Below are positions 5,576 through 27,321 of a DNA stretch of 34,019 nt, piece after piece; position 1 is the stretch's first letter; each line of letters starts with the position of its first letter. Where the stretch lies: positions 1 to 34,019 of the forward strand of contig JAJYQA010000021.1 in assembly GCA_021794835.1 (NCBI GenBank). The letters are read 5' to 3'. The translations under genes were made by a program, and so were the position numbers. This DNA is from Actinomycetes bacterium. Lineage in GTDB: Bacteria; Actinomycetota; Aquicultoria; Aquicultorales; Aquicultoraceae. The notes under the pieces are model-generated. The model searched no databases. It was given only the letters and a program-made list of their open reading frames with translations, and was not told the origin of the DNA.

Positions 5576-7201
5576 CTAACTTTTCTTTACTGCTTCACCA
5601 TTTAATATACCGATACCGTTCGGTCCATCCTCCACATGTACCTTTTTATGCATAAGACCGTATTCGATACTATCAACTAGAGCCTGCCAGCTTGCCTCGA
5701 TGATGTTCTCTGAAACGCCGATCGTGCCCCAGGTTTTTTGCCCGTCGCCGCTCTCAATAAGAACCCTGGTTATGGCAGCAGTACCTTTTTTCTCATCAAG
5801 CACGCGGACCTTAAAGTCGTTAAGCTCGATATCGGCAATTGCCGGATAGACAGACTCAATGGCCTTTCTTAAAGCTGCGTCAAGAGCGTTAACGGGGCCG
5901 TTTCCTTCTGCGGTCTCGATAACTGTTTTGCCGCCAACTTCAAGCTTTATAGTTGCCTCGCTTGCCACCTTGCCGTCTTCGCGCTTCTCCATAATTACCC
6001 TGAACCGCTTAAGCTTAAAGAACTGGGAATGTATCCCCAGTGATTTACGCAAGAATATCTCAAGGGATGCATCGGCCGCCTCGAAATGATAGCCGACATG
6101 CTCAAGGCCCTTTATTCGATTAAGAATATCGTTTACTTTATGCGGCTCTTCGGAAAGATCGATACCAAGTTCTTGCGCTTTAAGTACAATCGTGCTTCTG
6201 CCGGCAAGCTCGGATACGACAACCCTTTGGATATTCCCTACGAGGCCTGGGTCGACATGCGCATAGCCCTTCTTCTCGCGCTCGACCGCGCTTGTATGTA
6301 ACCCCGCCTTATGCGCAAACGCGCTATAGCCTACATATGCCTGATGAGGATAAGGGCTTAGATTGGCGATCTCGCTTACGAAGTTTGATACCTCGGTAAG
6401 CAGTTTAAGTTGCTCCGGTGAAACAACTTCGATACCCAGCTTTAGTTGAAGCGCAGGTATTACCGAGCAGAGATTTGCATTTCCGCACCGCTCGCCATAT
6501 CCATTAATTGTACCCTGCACCTGAGTTGCGCCTGCCTGAACAGCGATTATCGAGTTTGCAACAGCACACTCCGAGTCGTTATGTGTATGTATCCCAATCG
6601 GGGTCTTAACCTTTTGCATTACCGACTCGATGATATCCTTTATTTCAAATGGCATCGTCCCGCCGTTGGTATCGCACGGCACAAGCCAATCGGCCCCCGC
6701 GTCTTCTGCCGCCTTGAGTGTTGCCATGGCATAATCCGGGTCATCCTTATATCCATCGAAGAAGTGCTCTGCATCAAAGAACACTTCAAGACCATTCTTC
6801 TTTAGATAAGCAACCGAGTCGGCGATCATATTGAGGTTTTCTTCGGGGGTCGTCCGCAACGCCCGCTCGACATGGATTTTCCAGCACTTGCCGACAATAC
6901 ATGCACCGGCAGCACTGCTTGCAACAAGGGCTTTTAAATTGAAATCATCTTCGGCTTTGATATTTTTTCTGCGGGTGCTTCCAAAAGCAATAATTTTTGC
7001 GTTTTTAAGTTTCAGGTCGCGGACGCGTTTAAAAAACTCAGTATCCTTTGGATTAGAGCCTGGGAAACCGCCCTCGATATAATGAATGCCGAGCTTATCC
7101 AGCTCGCGGGTAATTTTCAGTTTATCCGTTACGGAAAACGATAGTCTCTCGCGCTGCGAACCATCCCTTAGCGTTGTGTCGTAGAGTTTGACCTCTGGCA
7201 T
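5576..7201 (-). CDS. cimA: (R)-citramalate synthase
   Basis: This 541-residue member of the isopropylmalate/homocitrate synthase family is of the CimA type. It condenses acetyl-CoA with pyruvate to citramalate, the first step of threonine-independent isoleucine synthesis. The N-terminus has YDTTLRDGSQRE (metal ligand near D8), the metal-binding HTHND lies at 205-209, and TINGYGERCGNANLCS at about 231-246 is typical of this branch rather than of LeuA. The C-terminal portion (about 400-541) is a LeuA-type dimerisation/regulatory domain, suggesting feedback by isoleucine. The ATG at 7201 has a weak upstream AAGGGA. It lies between ilvE and the FAH-family gene. LeuCD and LeuB, encoded upstream, could supply the next two steps. 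Confidence 0.93.
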   Translation of the reverse strand: MPEVKLYDTTLRDGSQRERLSFSVTDKLKITRELDKLGIHYIEGGFPGSNPKDTEFFKRVRDLKLKNAKIIAFGSTRRKNIKAEDDFNLKALVASSAAGACIVGKCWKIHVERALRTTPEENLNMIADSVAYLKKNGLEVFFDAEHFFDGYKDDPDYAMATLKAAEDAGADWLVPCDTNGGTMPFEIKDIIESVMQKVKTPIGIHTHNDSECAVANSIIAVQAGATQVQGTINGYGERCGNANLCSVIPALQLKLGIEVVSPEQLKLLTEVSNFVSEIANLSPYPHQAYVGYSAFAHKAGLHTSAVEREKKGYAHVDPGLVGNIQRVVVSELAGRSTIVLKAQELGIDLSEEPHKVNDILNRIKGLEHVGYHFEAADASLEIFLRKSLGIHSQFFKLKRFRVIMEKREDGKVASEATIKLEVGGKTVIETAEGNGPVNALDAALRKAIESVYPAIADIELNDFKVRVLDEKKGTAAITRVLIESGDGQKTWGTIGVSENIIEASWQALVDSIEYGLMHKKVHVEDGPNGIGILNGEAVKKS

Positions 7202-7216
7202 GAATAATCAGTCCCT

Positions 7217-7295
7217 TGTTCCTAGTACTGGAACACATTAATTATTATGTCGTTGTAAGTAAAGCGAAGGCTTTACTTGCTCTTCGCAATTACAA
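7217..7295. repeat. Cluster of short perfect hairpins between ilvE and cimA
   Basis: TGTTCC/GGAACA (7217-7222/7230-7235) and AAGTAAAGC/GCTTTACTT (7257-7265/7270-7278, loop GAAG) are perfect inverted repeats. TTGTAA (7253-7258) pairs with TTACAA (7290-7295), and GCGAAG (7264-7269) with CTTCGC (7283-7288), giving alternative folds. No U-tract follows on the minus strand, so this looks more like a processing or folding element than a terminator. Confidence 0.5.
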
Positions 7296-7330
7296 TTCAC
7301 CATATTATCTATTCACTTGTACTGCAGAAG

Positions 7331-7400
7331 GCCCGATTTATCGGGCAACTATATTCTTCCTGTTCGCCGGCTCACTAGCTCACCGGCTCCTACGTGCTCC
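7331..7400 (-). repeat. Dispersed repeat with GCCCGAT hairpin, copy 1 (ilvE 3' end)
   Basis: The hairpin GCCCGATTTATCGGGC (7331-7346) is followed by AACTATATT and a stutter of GCTCACC-like words. It matches the elements at 17222 and 26231 in the same orientation. The ilvE stop codon (7351-7349) and the last dozen ilvE codons lie inside it. Confidence 0.7.
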
Positions 7401-8302
7401 AGCCAGTGCAAATATTTATCATACTCGCCCTTTACTACTGTAAAAAACTTCTCCTGGAGTGCAACCGTGATAGGGCCGGGCTTACCAATCTCCCGCTTAT
7501 CCACCTCTCTGATAGGTGTTATCTCAGCGGCAGTTCCTGTTATAAATATCTCATCGGCCAAGAACAGATCAGACCTTACAAGATCACGCTCGACTACCTC
7601 AAAGTCCATATCTTTCGCCAATTCTATCACAGTATTTCTGGTTATACCCTCTAGTATGCTTGACGCCGTTGATGGAGTACGAAGTACGCCGTTTTTAACC
7701 ACAAATATGTTTTCGCCGGTTCCTTCGGATATAAACCCCCTTGAATCAAGCATGATCGCCTCTTCATAGTTGCTATAGATGGCTTCTATTTTGGCAAGGA
7801 TTGAGTTTATATACTGTCCAGTGGCCTTTGCTGCGGGCGGTAGGGAGTTTGGGTCGATTCTTCTAAACGAGGAAATCATAGCTTTTATGCCGTTTTCAAG
7901 ACCATCGTCACCGAGGTAGGTGCCCCAGGACCACATCGCTATGGCAACATCGACCGGCGAATTTAACGGGTTTAGACCCATCTCTCCGTAGCCCCGGTAA
8001 ACAATCGGGCGGATATAACAGCTTTTAAGCTTATTGATTTTAATAAGCTCCTTTGTTGCCTCTACAAGCTCCTCGACTGAATATGGCACCGGCATCATAT
8101 AGACCTTTGACGAGTCCATCAGCCGCTCCATGTGTTCGGTAAGGCGGAATACGGCAGTGCCCCTGGGAGTTTCATAGGCTCTGATGCCTTCAAACACACC
8201 CGAGCCATAATGCAGGGCGTGGGTCAATACATGTACCTGAGCTTTATCCCAATCTACGAATTCTCCGTTTAACCATATTTTATCGACTTTCTCTATTGGC
8301 AT
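7349..8302 (-). CDS. ilvE: Branched-chain amino acid aminotransferase
   Basis: This is a 317-residue class IV PLP aminotransferase that transaminates the 2-oxoacids of valine, leucine and isoleucine, using glutamate. The PLP lysine is K159 in AAKATGQYINS; the hallmark EAIMLDSRGFISEGTGENI lies at about 180-200. The N-terminal HALHYGSGVFEGIRAY is typical of the IlvE family. The C-terminus is about a dozen residues longer than usual, and this tail (AGELVSRRTGRI) is translated from a dispersed intergenic repeat, so it is probably not functional. The start ATG at 8302 lies 17 bases after leuB. Confidence 0.94.
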   Translation of the reverse strand: MPIEKVDKIWLNGEFVDWDKAQVHVLTHALHYGSGVFEGIRAYETPRGTAVFRLTEHMERLMDSSKVYMMPVPYSVEELVEATKELIKINKLKSCYIRPIVYRGYGEMGLNPLNSPVDVAIAMWSWGTYLGDDGLENGIKAMISSFRRIDPNSLPPAAKATGQYINSILAKIEAIYSNYEEAIMLDSRGFISEGTGENIFVVKNGVLRTPSTASSILEGITRNTVIELAKDMDFEVVERDLVRSDLFLADEIFITGTAAEITPIREVDKREIGKPGPITVALQEKFFTVVKGEYDKYLHWLEHVGAGELVSRRTGRI

Positions 8303-8319
8303 CTCGCTTTACCTCCCAG

Positions 8320-9375
8320 TTATTTTCTCACAAACTCCGCGACCATATTGCCGACCTCGGATGTGCTGTAGCCCATCTGGCCGGCGGCAAGGCTCTTTAT
8401 CTTCTCGCTTGTTACCTTAATAACTGCTGCCTCTATTTTTTTAGCAACTTCTTTTTGTCCAAGGTGCTCGAGCATAAGCTGTGCCGCCGAGATTGCGGCC
8501 AGCGGATTGATTATATTCATGCCGGTATATTTCGGGGCAGAGCCGCCGATCGGCTCAAACATCGAAACACCTTCCGGATTGATGTTTCCTCCTGCGGCAA
8601 TACCCATACCTCCCTGAATCATCGCGCCAAGGTCTGTTATAATATCGCCAAACATATTATCCGTTACAATAACGTCAAACCACTCCGGGTTTTTAACAAA
8701 CCACATGCTAATCGCATCAACGTGCGCATAATCCGCCGTAATATCCGAATACTCCTCCGCTATATCGTAGAACGCGCGCTCCCAGAGGTCAAATGCATAC
8801 GTTAAGACATTGGTCTTGCCGCAAAGCGTAAGCTTTTTGTCTTCGTTGCGCTCGCGTGTATAGTCGAAAGCGTAGCGGATGCAGCGCTCAACGCCTTTGC
8901 GGGTGTTAATGCTCTCCTGGACAGCTACCTCATCAGGGGTTCCTTTCTTCAAAAAACCGCCTGCACCGGTATAGAGACCTTCCGTGTTCTCGCGGACTAC
9001 AACAAAGTCTATATCTTCGGGGCCTTTATCTTTGATCGGGGTGTAAACACCCGGATATAGCTTAACCGGCCTTAGATTTATATACTGGTCAAGCTCAAAC
9101 CTAGTTCTCAAAAGGATACCTTTCTCAAGAATTCCCGGCTTGACATCCGGATGGCCAATTGCACCAAGCAGGATAGCATCCAGCTTGTGGAACTCCTCGA
9201 CGGCAGAGTCGGGCAGGATTTCGCCGGTTGCCAAGTACCTATCACCACCGAAATCATAGTGAACAAGCTCATACTTAAAGTTGGCAACCTCGCTTGCCGC
9301 CTCTAAAACTTTTAATGCTTCCCTTGTAACCTCAGGACCGGTTCCATCGCCGGGCATAACTCCGATCTTATACAA
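8320..9375 (-). CDS. leuB: 3-isopropylmalate dehydrogenase
   Basis: A 351-residue beta-decarboxylating dehydrogenase that oxidises 3-isopropylmalate to 2-oxoisocaproate in leucine synthesis. It starts at TTG 9375 with GGAGGAG upstream. It has the substrate-binding stretch [17 protein letters not shown] (87-103), VRENTEGLY (127-135) and [10 protein letters not shown] (239-248). The segment after 105 (YPGVYTPI) and [14 protein letters not shown] match the actinobacterial LeuB type. An oddity is that the coenzyme loop reads GGSAPKYTG, with K282-Y283 where NAD-dependent LeuB enzymes have Asp-Ile, suggesting NADP use. It follows leuD in the leuA-leuC-leuD-leuB-ilvE order. Confidence 0.92.
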
Positions 9376-9937: not shown

Positions 9938-10021
9938 GTTCATGGTTCATTGTTCATCGAGTGAAAGCAAGTAATGAGAGTAAGTAACTTTTGATTATAT
10001 AATTTAGATTCTTCGACTACG
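9938..10021 (-). repeat. Stutter words and 60-base dispersed repeat, copy A
   Basis: GTTCAT occurs three times at seven-base spacing (9938, 9945, 9952). Directly beyond it, 9962-10021 matches 17099-17158 over about 60 bases at close to 90% identity by eye. Both copies lie in intergenic gaps of the same operon and in the same orientation. Confidence 0.7.
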
Positions 10022-17098: not shown

Positions 17099-17285
17099 TG
17101 AAAGCAAGTAATGAGAGTAAATGATTTTTGATTATATAATTTAGATCCCTCAACTACGCTCGGGATGACTACTCCTTTCACCTTTTCACCATTTAACCCT
17201 TTAGCCTACCCACCGTGGGACGCCCGATAAATCGGGCAACTACATTGTCCTATTCACCAGTCTTTAATTCGACATTCGAAATTTC
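17099..17285 (-). repeat. Composite repeat region after ilvN (copy B plus GCCCGAT hairpin copy 2)
   Basis: Reading from the ilvN stop on the minus strand, the order is: an AATTTCGAAT / GTCGAATTAAAG module with the complement of TTCACCAGTCTTTAA (17253-17267); the AACTACATT tail and hairpin GCCCGATAAATCGGGC (17222-17237); CCCAC/GTGGG (about 17208-17218); a stutter of TTTCACC words; and the 60-base repeat matching copy A (17099-17158). The stretch 17144-17169 resembles a GTCATCC...GGATCT intergenic motif that I recall from unrelated bacterial genomes. Confidence 0.7.
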
Positions 17286-17774
17286 CTAGACCTCAGCAAG
17301 CTTTCCGCGTGCGAGCGCAACTTTGCCTGTCCTGACAAGCTCTTTTATTCCATACGACCTTAATAGATCCTCAAGGGCTTGGATTTTGTCGGCTGTACCG
17401 GTGATCTCTATGGTCAGAGTATTTTTGCTCACATCAATAATGTTGGCCCTGAATATATTTGCGGTTTCTACTATCTCAGGCCTCATATTTGGTGCAGCGT
17501 TGACTTTCATCAAAACCAGCTCCCGCTCAACAGAATCCCTTGGATCAAGGTCGCTTATCTTAAGCACGTTGACCAGCTTATGAAGCTGCTTGGTTATCTG
17601 CTCAAGCCTCAAGTCGTCCGCATCAACTACGATCGTCATGCGGGAGGTGTCCGGGTCCTCGGTCGGGCCGACGGCGAGGCTGTCGATATTAAACCCTCTC
17701 CTACTGAAGAGGCCGGAGACCCTAGCTAAAACACCCGGTTTATTTTCCACGAGTACCGACAGGATATGTTTCAT
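17286..17774 (-). CDS. ilvN: Acetolactate synthase, regulatory (small) subunit
   Basis: A 162-residue ACT-domain subunit that activates IlvB and confers valine feedback. It begins MKHILSVLVENKPGVLARVSGLF with an N-terminal ACT domain, followed by the ALS small-subunit C-terminal domain (about residues 80-160). ATG 17774 has GGGGGAGAGAG upstream; the longer frame to 17807 is a read-back into ilvB. The start lies inside ilvB, overlapping its 3' end by 35 bases, so translation is coupled and subunit ratios fixed. A composite repeat follows its stop. Confidence 0.93.
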   Translation of the reverse strand: MKHILSVLVENKPGVLARVSGLFSRRGFNIDSLAVGPTEDPDTSRMTIVVDADDLRLEQITKQLHKLVNVLKISDLDPRDSVERELVLMKVNAAPNMRPEIVETANIFRANIIDVSKNTLTIEITGTADKIQALEDLLRSYGIKELVRTGKVALARGKLAEV

Positions 17775-19521
17775 CTCTCTCCCCCTCTTCTTCCACTTCT
17801 TCGTCAATCATTTGGCTTATAGCTGCACCCGGAACACCGCCAAGCATCTCGTCGATTGAAGTGCCCGGTGCGACCATTGGGAACACATTCTCTTCCCTTG
17901 CAACCATAAAATCTATCAGGATGGGCTCGCGAGACTCGATGGCCCCTTTTAAGGTCTTCTCGACATCCTCAATCTGGGTCACGCGAATACCTTTTACGCC
18001 GTAAGCCTCCGCCAACTTCACAAAATCGGGTGTACCAACATCAAGATCGCTCTGGGAGTACCTTCTGTTATAGAAAAGCTCCTGCCACTGGCGAATCATG
18101 CCCAGATACCGGTTATCTAAAATGGCGATTATAATCGGCAACTTGTTTGCCGCAACGGTCGCCAGCTCCTGTGAGACCATCTGGATACTCCCATCGCCAT
18201 CGATATCGACAACAACTGCATCCGGGCGACCGATCTGTGCGCCAACCGCCGCCGGCAGGCCAAATCCCATGGTGCCAAGCCCACCCGAGGATATAAAGCT
18301 TCTCGGTGTGTTGCATCTATAGAACTGAGCGGACCACATTTGATTCTGACCGACCCCAGTGGTCACTATCGTATCTTTACCTTTAGTTAGCTTGCTGATC
18401 ATCTCAATAACGTATTCCGGCCTGATCTGGCCATCTTGATGATAATGAAGCGGATACTTCGTCTTCCACTCTTTAATCATTGCGTGCCATCTGGACTTAT
18501 CGGCATACGGTTTGTCTATCTTATTAACCGCAGCAATCAAGTCTTTTAGGACTATCTTCGCGTCGCCGACGATCGGCAGATCGACCACAACGTTCTTGCT
18601 TATCTCTGCCGGGTCGATATCTATGTGGACGATCGTTGCGTGCGGCGCAAAAGTCGATATTTTGCCGGTTACGCGATCATCGAAGCGAACACCGACCGCA
18701 AGGATAAGGTCGCTGTCCATTATCGCGTAGTTGGCGTAACGCGTGCCGTGCATTCCGGGCATGCCGACCGATAGCGGATGATCATCCGGGAAAGCACCTT
18801 TACCCATTAAGGTCGTCGTGACCGGAGCCTCGAGTATCTCTGCGATATCCTTTAACTCCCTCCACGCCTCGGACTTGTTGATTCCGCCGCCGGCATAAAT
18901 AATCGGCTTCTCTGCTTTAGCCAGAAGCTTTGCCGCCTCTTTGATTTGCTTTGCATGGCCTTTGTAGACCGGCTTATATCCGGGGATAACCAAATCCTCC
19001 GGGTACTTGAAGTCTATCTCTGCTTTTGAAATATCGCTCGGTATATCGATCAAGACCGGCCCAGGTCTGCCTGATTTGGCAAGTGCAAATGCCTGCCTGA
19101 TTATGGTGGGCAGCTGATTAACATCTTTTACGAGGTAGTTATGCTTGGTTATCGGCAACGTAATACCGGTGATGTCGGCCTCCTGGAATGCGTCCGTTCC
19201 GAGTACGGTCGTCGCCACCTGTCCTGTAATGGCTACCATCGGAATGGAATCCATCCACGCGTTGGCTATACCGGTTACCAGGTTGGTAGCCCCTGGCCCG
19301 GACGTGACAAGGCAAACTCCTACCTTTCCGGTAGCCCTCGCATACGCATCCGCCGCATGGCCGGCACACTGCTCGTGTCTAACCAGAACGTGACGGATCG
19401 TCTTGCAATCGTAGAGAGCGTCGTAGATAGGCAGTACCACCCCACCTGGGTAGCCGAAGATTACGTCTACGCTCTCCCTCTCCAAACTCTTAATTAATGC
19501 TTCTGCTCCTGTCATACGCAT
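17740..19521 (-). CDS. ilvB: Acetolactate synthase, catalytic (large) subunit
   Basis: A 593-residue ThDP-dependent enzyme that makes 2-acetolactate from two pyruvates, or 2-acetohydroxybutyrate. The catalytic E50 lies in RHEQCAGHAADAYARA, the ThDP/Mg motif GDGS at 442-445 ends with ILDN (467-470), and VGVRFDDRVTG (276-286) belongs to the FAD-binding central domain. The usual QGAAHAADGYARA reads QCAGHAADAYARA here, a mild variation. ATG 19521 follows a full AGGAGGTGAT at ideal distance. The last 30 or so residues are acidic (EEVEEEGERDE), and their codons overlap ilvN. It follows ilvD by 30 bases. Confidence 0.95.
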   Translation of the reverse strand: MRMTGAEALIKSLERESVDVIFGYPGGVVLPIYDALYDCKTIRHVLVRHEQCAGHAADAYARATGKVGVCLVTSGPGATNLVTGIANAWMDSIPMVAITGQVATTVLGTDAFQEADITGITLPITKHNYLVKDVNQLPTIIRQAFALAKSGRPGPVLIDIPSDISKAEIDFKYPEDLVIPGYKPVYKGHAKQIKEAAKLLAKAEKPIIYAGGGINKSEAWRELKDIAEILEAPVTTTLMGKGAFPDDHPLSVGMPGMHGTRYANYAIMDSDLILAVGVRFDDRVTGKISTFAPHATIVHIDIDPAEISKNVVVDLPIVGDAKIVLKDLIAAVNKIDKPYADKSRWHAMIKEWKTKYPLHYHQDGQIRPEYVIEMISKLTKGKDTIVTTGVGQNQMWSAQFYRCNTPRSFISSGGLGTMGFGLPAAVGAQIGRPDAVVVDIDGDGSIQMVSQELATVAANKLPIIIAILDNRYLGMIRQWQELFYNRRYSQSDLDVGTPDFVKLAEAYGVKGIRVTQIEDVEKTLKGAIESREPILIDFMVAREENVFPMVAPGTSIDEMLGGVPGAAISQMIDEEVEEEGERDETYPVGTRGK

Positions 19522-21250: not shown

Positions 21251-21284
21251 AAAAAAAGCCTCTCAATCCCAATGGAACGAGAGG
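21251..21284 (-). terminator. T-box leader terminator
   Basis: On the minus strand CCTCTC (21284-21279) pairs with GAGAGG (21264-21259) around a 14-base loop. A run of seven T residues follows (21257-21251). It stands directly after the T-box sequence and 34 bases before the ilvD ATG, as required for tRNA-controlled attenuation. Confidence 0.9.
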
Positions 21285-21557
21285 ATTCTCACGCGGTACC
21301 ACCCAAATTCAGCAAGGCCAGCTATCAATTAGAGCATATCAGGCCTGCTGCTCTTATCGCCCGTAACGTGGGCCACGGACCAAACTACTTGGCATTTCTG
21401 CTGTTCAGATGGCCAGCTCCAGGGCGACATTCAACTTACATCCTATACCGGCTTCTCACCACCCCCGGCTCGCTCAAATAGTAAGAAAGTTTACTACTCC
21501 CCTTCATAGCCTTTATCCTTTGTAAGCAATTGCATTTTCCCTGCTCGGAGAATATTA
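21251..21557 (-). ncRNA. T-box leader upstream of ilvD (branched-chain aa tRNA sensor)
   Basis: The minus strand carries the canonical T-box TGGGTGGTACCGCG (21305-21292) followed by the terminator. Upstream are Stem I landmarks: the AGTA bulge region in GGGGAGTAGTAAA, a GAGCGAGCCGGGGGTGGTG distal-loop region, and TTGAATGTCGCCCTGGAGC, where the specifier is expected. The most sensible specifier codon is GTC (21428-21426) followed by a purine, pointing to valyl-tRNA; this is by-eye alignment and less sure than the T-box itself. Uncharged tRNA would stabilise the antiterminator and let the ilv-leu-ser operon be transcribed. Confidence 0.93.
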
Positions 21558-26230: not shown

Positions 26231-26334
26231 GCCCGATAATCGGGCAACTACATTTTTCCGATTCACCCATTCACCGACTCACCGATTCACCGGTTTTTAA
26301 TCCGATGTTCGAAGTTCGCAATTCGAAATTCCCA
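26231..26334 (-). repeat. Dispersed repeat with GCCCGAT hairpin, copy 3 (slipin 3' end)
   Basis: Directly after the slipin stop the minus strand reads AATTTCGAATTGCGAAC and CTTCGAACATCGG, then a TTAAA module, then about four GGTGAATCGG-like units, then ATGTAGTT and the hairpin GCCCGATAATCGGGC (26231-26245). It shares this order with the region after ilvN. Confidence 0.75.
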
Positions 26335-27321
26335 TCATTCGTTTTTCTTAAAAAGCCCTGCTATTTTCTCCGCCACATCGAGAAACTCGGTCGGGAATAG
26401 TACAACTGTGTTAGATGCGCTTGGGCCAAGCCCATCTATGGTTTGAAGGGTTCTAAGCTGCATGGCCCCCGGGCTTTTGGCCATAGTCGCAGCAGCTTCT
26501 GATAGATTTACAGCCGCAAGCTTGTCGCCCTCGGCCTTGGTTATGGTTGCCCGCTTCTCGCGTTCAGCCGAAGCCTGCCGCGACATCATCTTCTTTAACT
26601 CCTCGGGCATATCGATATCAAGCAGGCGAATAGAGTCTATGTGAATTCCCCATTCCTTAATATGCTCCTCCACGATCTCTCCAATCCTCTCCTGGATTTG
26701 CTCGCGCTCGGTTAAAAGGTCATCTAGAGAAAGCGAGCCTACAACATCGCGCAGAGAGGCCTGGGCATACTGAGCTATTGCAAATCTAAAATCCTGCACC
26801 TTGGTTACCGCCAGCTCGGCATCAGCGACGTAAAAGAAGATGACGCCGTCAATCATCGCCGGTACGTTATCTTTTGTTATCACGTGCTGGCCGGGGATAT
26901 TTAAGGCGAGAACACGGTTATCGACAAACCGAACAAAGTCTAAGAAGGGCACGATATAGATTACACCCGGTCCTCTAACCGCCTCAAAGCGGCCGAGGCG
27001 TAAGACGACACCGCGCTCCCACTGGGCCGCCACGCGAACCCCCGAGATAAAAAGCGCAATTAAGCCAATGAGAATAACCCCTATAACAATGCCAGCCGGG
27101 CTGGTTCCAAACACTAGAAAAATTATCCCCGCAGCAATAATGGACGGAAGTACGGTTAGGACCATCCGAAGCGTCCCGCCAAGAGAGACATGTACCCCGG
27201 TTGGTGCTGCAAATTGCTTACTCGGCGATGGTGTTATCTGACTCATATTATCCTGGTCTCCTTTCCCACCCGGCGTGGGAGAATTCGATAAAATATTTAA
27301 AATATCCCTTAGATTAGGCAT
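26335..27321 (-). CDS. Slipin-type SPFH/band 7 membrane protein
   Basis: A 328-residue protein with a variable N-terminus, two adjacent hydrophobic stretches (about 53-93) and an SPFH domain starting at GVVLRLGRFEAVRGPGVIY. A helical C-terminal part (MSRQASAEREKRATITKAEGDKLAA region) follows, typical of stomatin/slipin proteins that form ring-like membrane scaffolds. ATG 27321 follows AAAGGTGAGC. A second ATG 25 codons in also has an AAGGAGA site and cannot be excluded. Slipins are often paired with an NfeD protease gene; none is adjacent here. The C-terminal end lies at a repeat element. Confidence 0.88.
   Translation of the reverse strand: MPNLRDILNILSNSPTPGGKGDQDNMSQITPSPSKQFAAPTGVHVSLGGTLRMVLTVLPSIIAAGIIFLVFGTSPAGIVIGVILIGLIALFISGVRVAAQWERGVVLRLGRFEAVRGPGVIYIVPFLDFVRFVDNRVLALNIPGQHVITKDNVPAMIDGVIFFYVADAELAVTKVQDFRFAIAQYAQASLRDVVGSLSLDDLLTEREQIQERIGEIVEEHIKEWGIHIDSIRLLDIDMPEELKKMMSRQASAEREKRATITKAEGDKLAAVNLSEAAATMAKSPGAMQLRTLQTIDGLGPSASNTVVLFPTEFLDVAEKIAGLFKKNE

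Follow-up and report, generated by a model that had tools for sequence, protein, structure and literature searches.

How does a gene for a core enzyme come to end within dispersed repeat sequence? The question is raised by ilvE, which lies in a stretch of 34,019 nt (contig JAJYQA010000021.1, the window analyzed here) of the 44-contig, 2.04-Mb genome of an uncultured actinomycete (GCA_021794835.1, referred to as G000). The original prediction held that one hairpin repeat, found three times in the window and always in one orientation, runs into ilvE and provides both its stop codon and about 12 extra residues, thus rewriting the end of the protein. All three hairpins are indeed present, each followed on the plus strand by AACTAYATT and TTCACC-like words (Table 1). 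The account that we consider probable is that a mosaic of a GTAG-type repetitive extragenic palindrome (REP) and a short tandem array now occupies the 3′ end of an ilvE gene that had lost its stop codon earlier, and that the present stop is derived from the REP.

Table 1. Repeat copies and adjacent genes in the window
Feature	Position	Strand	Remarks
REP stem-loop 3′ of ilvE	7331-7346	-	plus strand GCCCGATTTATCGGGC, sense GCCCGATAAATCGGGC; loop TAAA, not the usual TTTA
REP head at ilvE	7347-7353	-	sense TATAGTT, consensus TGTAGTT; TAG at 7349-7351 is the ilvE stop
Diverged period-8 GGTGAANN array, encoding IlvE tail AGELVSRRTGRI	7352-7387	-	residues 306-317
ilvE, branched-chain aminotransferase	7349-8302	-	317 aa; conserved fold to near residue 304
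REP copy near ilvN, perfect consensus	17222-17244 (stem 17222-17237, GCCCGATAAATCGGGC)	-	array words on both sides
ilvN, acetolactate synthase small subunit	17286-17807	-	
REP copy near Band 7 gene	26231-26252 (stem 26231-26245, GCCCGATAATCGGGC)	-	loop one base shorter
SPFH/Band 7 protein gene	26335-27321	-	G002 ortholog lacks the entire composite repeat

At the window copies, the sense strand of the repeat is the minus strand, which is also the strand of the neighboring genes, and it reads TGTAG-TT-GCCCGAT-TT-ATCGGGC. In the hairpin repeat, a GTAG head and a TT spacer lead into a 7-bp palindrome around a TTTA-like loop; the consensus-type single-stranded REP, as opposed to the ilvE variant, is TGTAGTTGCCCGATTTATCGGGC. 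Within the window there are two matches to GCCCGATNNATCGGGC at two or fewer mismatches (0.2 by chance) and eight GC-rich stems of 7 bp that pair perfectly around short loops, each overlapping stem being counted, versus 1.4 in shuffled sequence. The stem starts 2 nt past the stop codon at ilvE, 48 nt at ilvN, and 89 nt at the Band 7 gene, and the folding energy of the ilvE stem-loop as RNA is −12.2 kcal/mol. The gene downstream of ilvE occupies 5576-7201. An Rfam search of the window gave nothing at the hairpins, the only match being a T-box leader (RF00230, 116.8 bits, 21270-21516, minus strand) upstream of a minus-strand run of amino-acid biosynthesis genes. The window also contains a further dispersed repeat of 60 nt (9962-10021 and 17099-17158, 90% identical), one copy of which adjoins the ilvN REP block.

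A genome-wide count, as suggested at the outset, found 10 exact hairpins in G000 (none with a reversed-pattern control) and, for the 23-mer that includes the head, 26 places at three or fewer mismatches (control, none). The majority head across these 26 places is TGTAG, the ilvE copy having the near variant ATAG. Stem cells are paired in 94% of cases, compared with 28%-42% in slid control structures, and there are seven compensated, both-side stem changes versus 1.7 in shuffles (variant stem types include GCCTGAT/ATCAGGC and GCCCCAT/ATGGGGC). The shared orientation holds for the three window copies but not genome-wide, where 15 places are forward and 11 are reverse. Inverted or facing pairs, as in BIMEs and REPINs, involve several of the G000 copies and also occur in G002 and other MAGs. 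The copies are dispersed, mostly extragenic, and close to gene 3′ ends; for the 26 copies, long-ORF ends located within −200 to +60 of the head number 17 on the head side and nine on the other side. By sequence, the window hairpins are GTAG-type REPs: the palindrome carries GTAG or a near variant on one side, the stem falls within the 6-9 bp range, the loop is short, and compensated variants occur. A high copy number, often above 100 per genome, is usual for REP families but does not define them, and the 26 places in G000, even at three mismatches, are few for such a family, which counts against our preferred account. In one paper, the exact hairpin string also appears within the terminal part of the cyanobacterial small RNA Yfr1, which we judged to be a coincidence.

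The original prediction treated the hairpin and the words next to it as a single element, and here it needs to be revised. The GGTGAANN words beside the REPs are spaced 8 nt apart, in what we call the period-8 array. Four units precede the REP copy at 26231, and the ilvE and 26231 blocks align with a score of 67 (shuffled maximum, 39). Within 60 nt on either side of the 26 G000 REPs, GGTGAR occurs 37 times in the sense and once in the antisense direction (2.2 expected). The corresponding counts are 18 and two around 37 REP copies in G002, two and zero around 24 copies in G003, and 13 and three around 99 copies from other phyla (7.6 expected). Scanning for three array units (two or fewer mismatches, overlapping matches counted, and a reversed control of zero in every genome) gave 44 matches in G000, nine in G001, 40 in G002, 42 in G003, nine in G005, 29 in G007, and none in G008. 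Because G007 has its 29 array matches yet no exact hairpins, the array and the REP are, as judged from these patterns, two separable and independent repeat families. The array is mostly one-stranded relative to the REP, and papers on heptanucleotide tandem repeats did not mention it. The largely open-access literature that was searched contained no description of the GGTGAANN array or of the 23-mer as a REP. As a separate observation, other short-period arrays (AGCCAATAGCC, GGGTCCAGGGTTAAAA, and AGCTGATGGCTGA) follow the same stop codons in congeners (L269, L270, L012, and L372), so that one intergenic module seems to take the place of another.

Translation of ilvE is set to stop at the TAG contained in the REP head (ATAG in this copy). 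The protein ends ...WLEHV-GAGELVSRRTGRI, and the DNA of the tail consists of four diverged array units (GGTGAGCT-AGTGAGCC-GGCGAACA-GGAAGAAT) that are followed by ATAG, TT, and the stem. IlvE residues 306-317 are thus array-encoded and the stop is REP-derived, which bears out the claim that the stop and about 12 residues come from dispersed repeats. The head and the array are coding, as the idea of an element running into ilvE would have it, but the hairpin itself sits past the stop and outside the ORF.

Comparison with relatives suggests where the protein formerly ended. Escherichia coli IlvE aligns to residues 3-304 of the window protein only, and an alignment of C termini (also suggested at the outset) has 26 of 29 relatives stopping at 304-306. 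The remaining three are extended to 313-317: G001 ends at 313 with the tail EVEEKSPAF, G002 at 317 with KSGEPVTGERVNQ (array DNA), and G005 at 314 with EQEAAVPAQD. We looked for the window tail in DNA without the repeat, and no examined relative shares the tail. Two of the four extended tails, those of G001 and G005, lack the array, and in the ilvE tree the four extended genomes (G000, G001, G002, and G005) form one clade with support of 0.951. Because they do so, and because two of their tails are array-free, the stop loss is probably older than the present repeats; in other words, the original stop was probably lost first, with repeats later overwriting an existing tail. This probable order is based on a tree in which support for the genus itself is only 0.385. 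A repeat has therefore rewritten this protein end insofar as it supplies the tail and the stop, but it does not appear to have caused the extension, as the array-free tails of G001 and G005 indicate. The IlvE cores of the two congeners are 87%-91% identical to that of the window protein while the tails differ, from which we infer a tail that is probably tolerated and of no particular use.

The hairpin is far from confined to this genome. Exact copies occur in seven of 11 genomes of the family (10 in G000, one in G001, 39 in G002, 72 in G003, five in G005, and one each in G006 and G008), and a scan of genome contigs for the exact 23-mer TGTAGTTGCCCGATNNATCGGGC found at least 119 stretches. Titles among the 80 matches listed name Nitrospirae, Proteobacteria, Poribacteria, Chloroflexi, Nitrospinota, Elusimicrobia, Doudnabacteria, Zixibacteria, Stahlbacteria, and Actinomycetota (these being MAG labels). 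In the cross-phylum MAGs, the REP often faces an inverted second palindrome that ends in CTAC, as in BIMEs. Little is common to these stretches beyond the 23 bases; thus, the REP core is the widespread part. With this case, several uncultured lineages join those with GTAG REPs.

Turnover at individual sites was evaluated at 18 REP sites near stops in G000 and G002 (25 candidates, of which 20 were searched and two lacked an ortholog). The counterpart site also has a REP in three of the 18 (L077, L078, and L243, as judged by eye from the printed stretch), and the others have other repeats or none. There are two clean empty sites in G002, one at L062 and the other, from a separate comparison, at the Band 7 gene; at such sites, an insertion here and a deletion in the sister would look the same. 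Further REP-supplied stops occur in G002, a sister species, at murG and rnr, both of which have REP-free orthologs in G000. The G002 murG product terminates as ...ETAEITTT at the head TAG, and the G000 ortholog ends ...ETAKRHE. Long ORFs end at a head TAG in one of 26 places in G000, two of 37 in G002, none of 24 in G003, and four of 99 in other phyla; the last four were not used, as their translations look noncoding. A bolder reading for this bacterial family, in which a composite of strand-locked array and cross-phylum REP turns over rapidly just after stops and replaces the C termini of core enzymes (IlvE and MurG) with array or REP codons, the array being a second element, mobile or prone to copying, that travels with REPs or is generated at REP sites, is one that we offer tentatively and consider doubtful.

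Taken together, the course of events may be envisaged as follows. The ilvE stop codon after ...WLEHV was probably lost in an ancestor common with the neighboring genus. The dispersal of GTAG REPs is ascribed to tyrosine (Y1) transposases that act in trans, and in this genus one-orientation REPs beside period-8 arrays constitute mosaic blocks just 3′ of genes that come and go between congeners. In the lineage of the window, the DNA 3′ of the lost stop would have become array plus REP, and the ribosome would now read four diverged array units and stop at the head TAG, adding 12 array-encoded residues.

Other histories could be proposed for the same protein end. An array-REP block inserted at or beside the ilvE stop could itself have caused the extension, in which case the extensions in sister genomes would be independent. 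GGTGA words stand at one and the same codon offset past WLE in G000 and G002. That a REP could land at a stop codon is suggested by the rnr gene of G002, where the REP directly adjoins a TAG on its 3′ side and the REP-free G000 ortholog stops at this TAG as well. We nevertheless find this history unlikely, because with G001 and G005 extended without array DNA and all four genomes in the clade supported at 0.951, a single earlier stop loss needs fewer events. A related idea is that REPs insert 3′ of a TAG-containing target, such that a TAG stop would naturally attract them and part of the head would belong to the host. The G002 rnr head is AATAG where the REP-free ortholog has AAGTAG, and the ilvE head is ATAG, as would be expected, but the head TAG is the stop of a long ORF in only three of 63 copies in G000 and G002, other comparable sites have no TAG at the junction, and the end of murG was rewritten. 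The comparison of the 18 loci did not bear the idea out, and we regard it as quite improbable.

Two further possibilities concern the nature of the hairpin and of the reading frame. A GC-rich hairpin right after a stop, on the coding strand, could be an intrinsic terminator of the ilvE transcript. We rejected this reading as very improbable, given that the hairpin is not followed by a T-run, that scanning 7100-8400 for terminators gave no hit at the hairpin and a number of sites no higher than in shuffles, and that the hairpin sequence is dispersed in both orientations. That the extended frame is an assembly or sequencing error in the MAG is scarcely credible; one small indel close to the former stop could produce it, but three more genomes continue past the stop at that position and group with G000. 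We favor an early loss of the ilvE stop followed by the arrival of the array and REP.

As for mobility, the original prediction pointed to a REP-type tyrosine transposase, and Y1-family genes are present (four Y1_Tnp matches in G000), but they resemble the DnaA_C-bearing kind. The REP is near just one of the 31 Y1_Tnp loci examined in the family (L053, with inverted copies some 790 nt ahead of the ORF and some 150 nt behind it), which also counts against our preferred account, and the genome's own Y1 proteins resemble subclass 2.1, with one Bac_DnaA_C match that is below Pfam's cut-off. According to the available part of one survey, DnaA_C-bearing Y1 proteins form subclass 2.1 and have no REPs nearby (PMC6006769). 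For these reasons, we infer, rather than observe, that the REP is moved in trans by a Y1 enzyme. Hairpins of any GT[AG]G type were found near Y1_Tnp genes six times in the 31 loci, versus 0.9 in shuffles, and a matching hairpin set around the gene occurs only at L222, where it is of another sequence type. The three GTAG hairpins of that locus, which is in G008, all belong to one different type (GTAGGGGC..GCCC), making it a better REPtron candidate in the family. The ilvE copy departs from the consensus in its head (ATAG) and loop (TAAA), a further point against the preferred account, and because loop positions matter for REPMb of Marinomonas in the accessible text of PMC8266576, this copy is probably immobile.

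Given that the stem starts so close to the stop, it is possible that the hairpin delays termination or shields the 3′ end of the mRNA. E. coli work cited in the available portion of PMC5082802 has REPs within 15 nt of a stop stalling ribosomes, and the 2-nt distance at ilvE falls within this range, which makes a direct test of stalling possible.

The closest known systems are the GTAG-tagged REP families (24 published families; Di Nocera et al. 2013, PMC3733652), which the window REP resembles by description. In the sections of that paper available, these have the terminal GTAG, a 6-9 bp stem with a very short loop, alternative complementary stem residues, inverted dimers, and a location 3′ of genes, and the head often provides a TAG stop codon. 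Unlike those families, the window REP is found beside a period-8 array, and in MAGs of phyla that the available text does not name. The REPtron Mb of Marinomonas sp. MWYL1 likewise has a perfect short stem, a TTTA loop, and a GTAG head, but its cognate TnpAREP was assayed, whereas the window REP was recognized by its sequence (PMC8266576, available text). Rickettsia palindromic elements, as outlined in PMC3733652, are palindromic repeats that also become protein sequence, although they reside inside ORFs and are CGTC-tagged, unlike the window REP. In Coxiella burnetii, QMITE2 extends EnhC and so, as in IlvE, provides C-terminal residues, an indel determining whether the repeat is read, but QMITE2 is a MITE with terminal inverted repeats, whereas the window case combines a REP with a tandem array (PMC5896051, in the part available). 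Repeat-supplied stops and C termini are thus an effect already described in the accessible text of these sources (PMC3733652; PMC5896051). The ilvE case is ordinary in kind, but it is a well-resolved example in which, with relatives included, one can see the stop in its former place, its loss, and a new stop from the repeat, and it illustrates how dispersed repeats reshape protein ends.
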